From assembly GCF_029760955.1 (NCBI RefSeq), contig NZ_CP121682.1, forward strand, positions 3,224,001 to 3,288,000: a stretch of DNA of 64,000 nt, in the 5' to 3' direction. Of this stretch, positions 8,445 through 47,743 are shown piece by piece; the stretch's first letter is position 1, and every line of letters begins with the position of its first letter. Below the pieces are notes generated by a model. The model was given only the letters and a program-made list of their open reading frames with translations. It had not been told where the DNA came from and made no database searches. Source of the DNA: Streptomyces cathayae (GTDB lineage Bacteria > Actinomycetota > Actinomycetes > Streptomycetales > Streptomycetaceae). Both the position numbers and the translations under genes were made by a program.

Positions 8445-8527
8445 GAGGGGGCGCCCAGGGCCCGCCGTGCTCCAGGAGCCGGTGGTAGGCGGCATTCTGC
8501 GTGAGTACCTTGGGATTCGGGTGGAGG

Positions 8528-8636
8528 CCACCGCAGCGGCTGACTGCGGCAGGCCCCAGATGGATCACGGAGTGTCCACCCCTATGCCTCTTAGGGGTGG
8601 CCGCTCACCATCCAAAGATCCGCAAGACCCACCTCC
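8528..8636. repeat. 109-bp structured direct repeat, copy 1
   Basis: Matches 8690-8798 with a single mismatch (base 8542), at an offset of exactly 162 bp. It contains the hairpin CCACCCCTA/TAGGGGTGG and the stem CCGCAG/CTGCGG. In the minus-strand sense it repeats the last codons of the small ORF plus its terminator, but the terminator outer stem is spoiled and there is no T-run. A 10-bp perfect inverted repeat (CGGTACCGGA at 8638-8647, TCCGGTACCG at 8663-8672) fills much of the spacer. Confidence 0.95.
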
Positions 8637-8675
8637 CCGGTACCGGACCAGCCGCCGGCGAATCCGGTACCGTAC

Positions 8676-8719
8676 AAAAAAAGTGGGGCCCACCGCAGCG
8701 GCTAACTGCGGCAGGCCCC
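8676..8719 (-). terminator. Intrinsic terminator of the small ORF cassette
   Basis: On the minus strand, the stem GGGGCC-tg-CCGCAG, loop TTAGCCG, and CTGCGG-tg-GGCCCC is followed by AC and seven Ts. This is a textbook rho-independent terminator, rare in such GC-rich DNA. Confidence 0.9.
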
Positions 8720-8798
8720 AGATGGATCACGGAGTGTCCACCCCTATGCCTCTTAGGGGTGGCCGCTCACCATCCAAAGATCCGCAAGACCCACCTCC
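8690..8798. repeat. 109-bp structured direct repeat, copy 2
   Basis: Second copy of the repeat at 8528-8636. This copy carries the intact small-ORF 3' end, the 9-bp hairpin at 8738-8762 and the base of the functional-looking terminator. Confidence 0.95.
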
Positions 8799-8862
8799 TC
8801 CGGCACTTCACCGTCCACAGACGGATACGGTCCCAGCGGGTGGGCTTGCGGTGGCGACCCAT
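8767..8862 (-). CDS. Putative 31-residue Arg/Trp-rich small protein
   Basis: A short frame starting MGRHRKPTRWDRIRL and ending RRWVLRIFGW. It has 9 Arg, 2 Lys, 4 Trp, 1 Cys and only 1 acidic residue, so it is strongly cationic. The ATG at 8862 is preceded by GGAAGGGGG seven bases upstream, which is a good Shine-Dalgarno sequence. The stop codon is followed within a few bases by a 9-bp hairpin (8738-8762) and then by the strong terminator at 8676-8719, an arrangement expected of a real short gene. The last ten codons belong to the duplicated 109-bp unit. I do not recognise it. It could instead be the chance frame of a small RNA gene or a leader peptide. Confidence 0.45.
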   Translation of the reverse strand: MGRHRKPTRWDRIRLWTVKCRRRWVLRIFGW

Positions 8863-9107
8863 GGGCACGCCCCCTTCCACGAGGCCGCCCGTCAGCCCGG
8901 TTGGGCGGTCCGTTCAGAATCGGTCCGGGCCCCGAAGGGCGAGGTCCGGAACGTGTCCTTGGAAGGGGGCGACCCCGAGAGCTGAGCCGCCGAACACGGA
9001 CACTATCGACTCGAAACGGCCTTTCCTGCGGCATTCACCCCGAAAGCAACCGCACGCCCCCCTACCGCCCCACGCGCCCCCACCACCACTCCCCCACCCG
9101 TACACAC
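8863..9107. other. Intergenic stretch with no gene recognised
   Basis: Lies between the small ORF and the guaB3 terminator. It should hold the promoter of the small ORF; a weak TAGTGT -10-like hexamer occurs on the minus strand near 9000 but no convincing -35. The C-rich run near 9050-9100 has no coding character. Confidence 0.5.
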
Positions 9108-9155
9108 GACGGGGCTCGGCCACCCCACATGCCGGTGGGGTGGCCGAGCCCCGTC
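9108..9155 (-). terminator. Terminator hairpin downstream of guaB3
   Basis: A perfect 19-bp stem, GACGGGGCTCGGCCACCCC at 9108-9126 and its complement at 9137-9155, with a 10-base loop, lies 48 bp after the guaB3 stop. No T-run. Confidence 0.8.
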
Positions 9156-9203
9156 ATCACTCTCAAGGGCGTCCGCCGCGCTCAAGGCGAGCGCGGCAGC
9201 ACG

Positions 9204-47541: not shown

Positions 47542-47743
47542 GGTGTATCTCCTTGGTGTCTGCCCCGGCCGTATCAGGTACCGGAGTCAGTATCCGAGCA
47601 GGCGGTCGCCTGTCGGAGATCCGGGCGGCCCCGTAGGGGCGCCCGGAAGGGGCGCGGGCGGTGTCGACATGCGACTCCGTCGCGTGGGCGCGAACAGCCA
47701 CAGCGCACCCGCACCCACGTACGGACCCGTCCGGCCCGAGCTC

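Follow-up and report, generated by a model that had tools for sequence, protein, structure and literature searches.

The window (the whole analysed stretch of 64,000 nt from Streptomyces cathayae) contains, in the region between the convergent genes guaB3 and dh, the latter coding for a nucleotide-sugar dehydrogenase, a conserved element of about 400 nt (about 9080–8685, minus strand). The sequence-only reading had placed it at 8528–8862 and had not recognised its 5' leader, the pairing of the Shine-Dalgarno (SD) sequence or the promoter-like box on the opposite strand. In S. coelicolor, SCO4771/SCO4772 presumably make up the surroundings of guaB3. The features of the locus, with P1–P6 designating stems and hairpins of the predicted RNA, were as follows:

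9108–9155, no strand assigned: hairpin after guaB3, a perfect inverted repeat of 21 bp
9032–9080, minus strand: conserved box preceding the sense promoter; its consensus, built from 76 upstream sequences, has two similar repeats that contain GGGGCGCG, and also GTTGCKTTCGGGGYGAAT
9000–9005, minus strand: promoter-like sense -10 box, TAGTGT
8968–8991, minus strand: P1, 5'-terminal hairpin
8960–8971, minus strand: anti-SD strand, CGCCCCCUUCCA
8925–8949, minus strand: P2, hairpin (RNAalifold and pair counts)
8884–8909, minus strand: P3, hairpin
8868–8879, minus strand: SD strand, UGGAAGGGGGCG, predicted to be sequestered
8767–8862, minus strand: ORF of an Arg/Trp-rich peptide of 31 aa
8785–8799, minus strand: SD-like AGGAGGU-N6-UUG inside the ORF
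8721–8775, minus strand: P4, stem including the last two codons and enclosing P5
8685–8719, minus strand: P6, hairpin, forming a terminator with the T7 run at 8682–8676
8683–8798, minus strand: 3' module, copy 1 (ORF end, P4, P5, P6)
8668–8673, plus strand: second antisense -10-like box, TACCGT, between the two modules, seen in the sequence
8521–8636, minus strand: 3' module, copy 2, a downstream tandem duplicate without T-run (108.6 bits with the module covariance model R1)
8506–8511, plus strand: promoter-like antisense -10 box, TACCTT, located beyond the last module and directed into it
8482–8486, plus strand: antisense -35-like GTGGT, 19 nt from the -10 box

The hairpin at 9108–9155 is probably the guaB3 terminator, which separates the element from guaB3.

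The repeat described in the sequence-only reading was reproduced: the two copies of 109 nt (8528–8636 and 8690–8798, offset 162) shared 108 of 109 bases with a single mismatch, and gapless extension enlarged them to 116 nt with 97% identity (8521–8636 and 8683–8798). The ORF of 31 codons was equally found, starting with ATG (minus strand, 8862–8767) and encoding the basic, Trp-rich peptide MGRHRKPTRWDRIRLWTVKCRRRWVLRIFGW with 11 Lys and Arg, one His and four Trp residues. As had been described, the ORF-linked copy terminates in the long hairpin and the T7 run, and in the other copy the outer stem is altered and the T-run is absent. The importance attached to the offset, which as 54 codons was said to keep the frame, was lost because the second copy is located after the stop codon. 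The folding of the ORF-linked copy was far more stable than that of its shuffles (z = -4.31), as was that of the predicted RNA of ~315 nt as a whole (MFE -181.9, z = -5.37), while the other copy with its flanks reached a z of -1.72, with 12 of 200 shuffles being equally low.

The 109-bp unit turned out not to be confined to the window, recurring in a part of the genus Streptomyces. With a 201-bp query, matches were obtained in 36 of 150 Streptomyces genomes, always in one region per genome and in some of them with adjacent partial copies; in all 30 fully read loci (L002–L031), the element was flanked by guaB3 and dh. The exact hairpin pattern was present in at least 119 stretches of the GTDB collection. 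The 80 loci listed bore the label Streptomyces, apart from two 'Actinobacteria bacterium' and one 'Kitasatospora aureofaciens'. In 65 of them guaB3 and dh were both present and in 15 one of the two, the missing side being truncated by the locus end in 14 of the 15. In 109 of 110 loci nothing contradicted the position of the element between guaB3 and dh, the sole exception being L142 (S. bambusae), where dh adjoins the element and no guaB3 was detected within the preceding 2.4 kb. This synteny disfavors a mobile element. The oriented locus L142 contains at about 2000–2600, in place of guaB3, the start of a gene reading MSQQ.., which is directed away. An ORF of 180–217 aa starting with MSQS was seen in the guaB3–dh interval, on the same strand as dh, in four loci lacking the element (L034, L036, L038, L043) and in one possessing it (L029). 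Plasmid and phage collections gave no match to the element, and R1 gave none outside Streptomyces in 200 family, 296 class and 296 phylum genomes; the genera with matches numbered 1 of 17, 1 of 114 and 1 of 198, respectively, each time Streptomyces, these samples being overlapping and the stricter search filters losing weak matches. Being restricted to one place per genome and to one genus in the samples searched, and having no plasmid or phage match, the element shows no selfish spread.

After pooling and deduplication of the loci, 92 elements with an ORF start and a module were available, and the ORF proved to be conserved in the relatives as a coding sequence. It was present as an ungapped frame of 31 codons in 78 of the 92 elements, giving 73 unique ORFs for the pN/pS calculation, while in-frame insertions were found in L024 and L031. 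Codons 1–16 had a pS of 0.300 and a pN of 0.053 (pN/pS 0.176), as compared to ratios of 1.40 and 1.62 in the other two sense frames and of 1.61, 1.66 and 0.56 in the three reverse frames, which places codons 1–16 under purifying selection in this frame. Further downstream, codons 17–24 had a pS of 0.072, the AGG AGG tandem was kept in 71 and 72 of the 73 ORFs and codon 26 was TTG in 68 of them, so that AGGAGGU-N6-UUG is conserved at the nucleotide level; both codons are rare, occurring once (AGG) and three times (TTG) among the 1279 codons of dh, guaB3 and a neighboring 500-aa ORF. The internal AGGAGGU-N6-UUG could start a minigene of six codons or pause ribosomes. The stop codon is changed to TGG and CGA in L003 and L010, respectively, extending the ORF into the module, and L026 has an ATA start codon.

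The peptide has a net charge of +9.6, a pI of 12 and a GRAVY of -0.97. AlphaFold2 (with 37 homologues) predicted a single helix for residues 9–30 with a mean pLDDT of 83.3 and a pTM of 0.35. An amphipathic character of this helix was discarded, since the hydrophobic moments of 18-residue windows fell only into the 6th–44th percentile of shuffles. For the membrane activity suggested in the sequence-only reading, the predicted helix and these moments point in opposite directions. Neither Pfam, which we take to include an Fst model, nor NCBIfam gave a match to the peptide at E-values up to 10, and homology to Fst or Ldr was not found by these searches; PADLOC had no match at the locus. The lone match in the protein database was a 'hypothetical protein' of 48 aa (E-value 1.7e-4), and in its own genome the peptide matched its own place and two chance-level sites, one of them inside module copy 2.

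The suggestion of a structured RNA was borne out by covarying stems in the 3' module. The alignment of this part (A2) included 71 of the 92 elements, i.e. those with a terminator recognised by pattern, and its RNAalifold consensus consisted of P4, P5 and P6. With this structure fixed, 66 double-change cells were counted, compared to 14.0 ± 3.0 after shuffling and to at most 20 in slid versions, and 98.5% of the cells were paired versus 38–49% in the slid versions. In P4, changes on both sides occurred in five of the six pairs among the 71 sequences, the peptide C-terminus varying along with the stem. The tandem wobble of P6 was kept as U.G in 65 and as G.U in 68 of the 71 sequences; these pairs would be C.A and A.C on the opposite strand, indicating that the sense RNA is the selected structure. 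Rfam returned nothing in the element at gathering scores and nothing relevant at E-values up to 5, the matches within 8450–9200 all being below gathering scores with E-values of 0.21 or worse. Elsewhere in the window, at 47560–47616 (minus strand), the L17-Actino-Proteobacteria ribosomal protein leader (RF03132) was recognized with 70.8 bits.

The good ribosome-binding site of the sequence-only reading, GGAAGGGGG, is predicted to be sequestered in the RNA structure. This was seen in the leader alignment (A3), comprising the 55 of 92 elements which had a leader, an SD, a recognised terminator and an intact ORF. The helix formed by the anti-SD and SD strands (30–39/132–144 of A3) was paired in 99.8% of cells in the 55 leaders; it is almost invariant and hence not itself supported by covariation. 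The predicted probability of the SD being unpaired averaged 0.007 over the 55 RNAs (highest single value 0.34), and it rose to 0.337 without the anti-SD strand and to 0.296 with a shuffled leader, using one shuffle each. The 5' segment containing P1 folded below the mean of 20 mononucleotide shuffles in 55 of 55 cases. As an alternative to P1, the 5' GGCG..CC can pair with codons 2–4 (paired in 99.5 and 100% of cells), and the MFE structure of the window RNA adopts this pairing, which closes around the start codon; P1 and the codon 2–4 pairing may represent a metastable switch. In P3 (helix 7), six of six pairs varied one-sidedly, C-G/U-G or G-C/G-U. Leader covariation was overall weak, with seven double-change cells in three pairs versus 0.5 after shuffling and up to five in three pairs in slid versions; the pair types numbered 19 versus 18.4 in shuffles, of which 189 of 500 reached as many.

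Promoter-like boxes were found on both strands. On the sense side, TAnnnT was located 34–42 nt before the anti-SD strand in 67 of 76 elements and in none at the other offsets tested, the remaining nine lacking it at this place. Further upstream, the conserved box reached 0.75–0.82 in its 20-nt bins in 25 genomes and is a possible operator; it has one site in its own genome with up to two mismatches allowed, and thus no regulon was found for it. On the antisense side, 62 of 77 elements had a TAnnnT at a distance of 13–19 nt beyond the last hairpin, as compared to a mean of 0.8 and a maximum of 5 at 56 other offsets; the 77 were those of the 92 that remained after exclusion of 13 elements without a terminator match and two rows that were too short. 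The strict pattern GTGG[CTA]-N17-21-TAnnnT-like was present in 76 of the 92 elements, compared to 0 of 92 in each of two controls and 1 of 95 element-free regions. Several of the 16 misses have a -10 box with a different -35 box or spacing, or stop at the locus end; L017 has no TAnnnT at the antisense site and L035 has lost the region.

The history of the element was followed through its genomic site, guaB3 being matched in 150 of 150 Streptomyces genomes. The region downstream of guaB3 was fetched from 100 further genomes, which together with the first loci covered 130 of the 150, and 111 of the 130 had enough dh sequence to be placed in a dh tree. All carriers fell under one node with 59 of the 111 tips, among which 30 had intact and eight had partial elements, the partial class being assigned by hand and two of its members (L039, L041) being known by a short start motif only. 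A single gain implies 15 Dollo losses on this tree, and the parsimony count was 15 changes, as compared to 31.9 (at least 26) when the labels were shuffled. This pattern is compatible with a single acquisition by a subclade and repeated loss afterwards. Various remnants were recognised: L033 kept the leader and the modules without the ORF body, L037 kept the leader and the ORF start without the 3' part, L054 retained a single module, and the leader was lost in L018, L028, L035 and L046. L032, whose guaB3 is 99% identical to that of the window, has no recognisable element. The number of tandem 3' modules varied from one to five, with two to five in 33 of the 92 elements. Adjacent modules were 86.2% alike versus 81.5% between genomes, and some of the extra modules had decayed down to 65–70% identity. 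Arrays of five (L137, 5166–5614) and four modules (L186, 2679–3015) had a period of 100–104 nt.

Decay of the two sides was asymmetric. Among the 38 carriers in the 130 genomes, 24 had both the sense and the antisense side complete, none had a complete sense side with a broken antisense side, six had a broken sense and a complete antisense side, and both were broken in eight (Fisher p 6e-5, ignoring kinship); omission of L039 and L041 gave 24/0/6/6 with a p of 5e-4. The table was built by hand, its statistics ignore phylogeny, and L003 with its lost stop and L026 with its ATA start were counted as sense complete; the asymmetry rests on few independent events. Dependence in one direction only is to be expected of a toxin and its antitoxin, but shared decay could account for a part of it.

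Our preferred reading of the locus is a type I toxin-antitoxin-like system, in which the mRNA of a peptide, taken as the toxin, is locked against translation and overlapped at its 3' end by an antisense RNA; on the sequence evidence, we give it a probability of roughly 0.5. Coding selection, the 3' stems, the predicted SD pairing, the promoter-like boxes on both strands, the distribution and the losses were obtained computationally; the two transcripts, translation, the unlocking step, duplex formation and toxicity of the peptide are inferred. The sense promoter (-10 box at 9005–9000) would produce an RNA of ~315 nt ending in P4-P5-P6, whose leader would pair its anti-SD strand with the SD and close around the start codon; with the SD paired and the start codon enclosed, the full-length RNA would therefore stay untranslated until processed or refolded. 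A promoter situated just past the dh stop codon (-10 box at 8506–8511, plus strand) would drive an antisense RNA that begins at the module and is complementary to the mRNA at its 3' end; through binding to the exposed hairpins and recruitment of RNase III, it would prevent production of the Arg/Trp-rich peptide. The extra tandem modules would lengthen or multiply the antisense target or antitoxin unit. Several observations speak against this reading: in contrast to the majority of type I toxins, the peptide is not hydrophobic and its helix not amphipathic; there is no selfish spread; the leader with its nearly invariant anti-SD helix has little covariation support; the decay asymmetry stems from few independent events; nine of 76 elements lack the sense TAnnnT at its place; and the stop codon is lost in L003 and L010, with L026 having the ATA start. 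The antisense box may also belong to a different RNA. As for the properties usual in type I systems, the length of 31 aa and the pN/pS of 0.176 agree with a coding ORF of less than 60 aa; an antisense RNA and a translationally inert mRNA are predicted, the former from a conserved promoter-like box in the appropriate place and orientation, the latter from the SD pairing; the small hydrophobic toxin, common but not universal, is not represented here, given the GRAVY value.

Part of the same evidence would also suit a dual-function small RNA, i.e. the RNA of ~315 nt acting in trans or binding a protein and in addition encoding the peptide, with the antisense RNA only tuning its level and no toxin involved. 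A bare terminator would not require P5 and P6 to be as invariant as they are, the G.U asymmetry reflects selection on the sense RNA, and the AGGAGGU is kept at the nucleotide level; such an RNA alone, however, explains neither the SD pairing of 12 nt nor why a complete sense unit never occurred without the antisense side in the sample, and we consider it unlikely. Still less probable appears an autoregulated ribonucleoprotein, in which the Arg-rich peptide would bind P4-P5-P6, with the tandem modules serving as titrating extra sites. The high pI and charge of the peptide, its single predicted helix, the arrays of two to five modules and the greater likeness of adjacent modules are in its favour, but the sequence of P4 changes while its pairing stays and some of the extra modules have decayed.

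A set of bidirectional terminators between convergent genes, accompanied by an incidental small ORF, is improbable. Convergent overlapping 'cutoRNAs' are described in Streptomyces (PMC3765725), and the region does lie between the convergent guaB3 and dh, both of them metabolic genes, and does contain strong hairpins; but guaB3 already has its separate hairpin at 9108–9155, and the element has its own conserved promoter-like box, a leader and frame-specific coding selection. A leader was also considered in the sequence-only reading. A leader peptide or attenuator, with ribosomes stalling at the tandem AGG or the internal AGGAGGU so as to switch the 3' hairpins and control something downstream, would agree with the conserved rare codons and SD-like motif just before the 3' stems and with the last codons belonging to P4, but was rejected as highly improbable because dh, the next gene, is convergent in the window and in the loci holding it and there is no same-strand gene before dh.

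If the type I reading is followed further, the locus may be, somewhat short of even odds, the founding member of a type I family in Actinobacteria, with an Arg/Trp-rich toxin that differs from the hydrophobic ones and an antitoxin gene growing by duplication of a module of ~100 bp from one to five copies; antitoxin dosage would then evolve by array length. The natural variants, which differ in module number (one to five) or lack the leader, the stop codon or the antisense side, provide a test set. The locus would also suggest that others of its kind lie unannotated in high-GC genomes.

Among the known systems are bsrG/SR4 and txpA/RatA of Bacillus, in which the antisense RNA overlaps the small-peptide mRNA at its 3' end, the toxins are hydrophobic and there is no module array. 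The locus would share with them the 3'-overlapping antisense layout and differs in the other two respects. Type III systems (ToxIN) combine a tandem-repeat RNA antitoxin with the gene of an endoribonuclease toxin, and were dismissed as a counterpart, with only the 31-aa ORF without family match preceding the repeats here. A literature search by titles and the opening parts of abstracts revealed, among the papers listed, none that describes a type I system for Streptomyces, and nothing on the element was found in passages of PMC3765725, PMC6344877, PMC10654065 and PMC5521070. According to a 2025 paper, in which BsrG/SR4 is also mentioned, type I systems were previously found only in Proteobacteria, Firmicutes and Tenericutes (PMC12390103). 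The msoT1/msoA1 pair of the cyanobacterium Microcystis described there, whose toxin was tested in E. coli and whose antisense isoforms are able to bind both the coding region at its 3' end and the 3' UTR (PMC12390103), resembles the Streptomyces element in being a type I-like locus outside the classical phyla.

The par system of pAD1 (RNA I/RNA II, Fst) appears to be the nearest in layout. According to its description, a 33-aa peptide is encoded by an mRNA of about 230 nt, the two promoters converge, the 3' ends carry terminator stem-loops complementary to each other, direct repeats are present, and the SD and the 5' end are sequestered within the toxin RNA; such systems occur on chromosomes too (PMC7472228). 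Convergent promoters, complementary 3' hairpins, direct repeats and a sequestered SD are recognizable here as well, by sequence and prediction. In contrast to the hydrophobic Fst, however, the peptide here is basic and rich in Arg and Trp, the 3' modules recur as entire tandem units, and the antisense box is located outside the hairpin, so that the antisense RNA is predicted to start with this hairpin instead of terminating in it. The aapA/IsoA systems of Helicobacter, with the 30-aa AapA3, a non-translatable primary transcript, anti-SD pairing, metastable hairpins and a cis antisense RNA (PMC6733600), seem, judged by their description, to be the nearest in the translation lock, sharing the small peptide, the anti-SD pairing and the cis antisense RNA, all predicted in our case; they differ in that IsoA3 is opposite the ORF itself and the aapA1 lock is a long-distance interaction of the 5' and 3' ends (PMC6733600). 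A conserved locus of such layout in Streptomyces would add both a phylum and a new kind of peptide to the type I systems.
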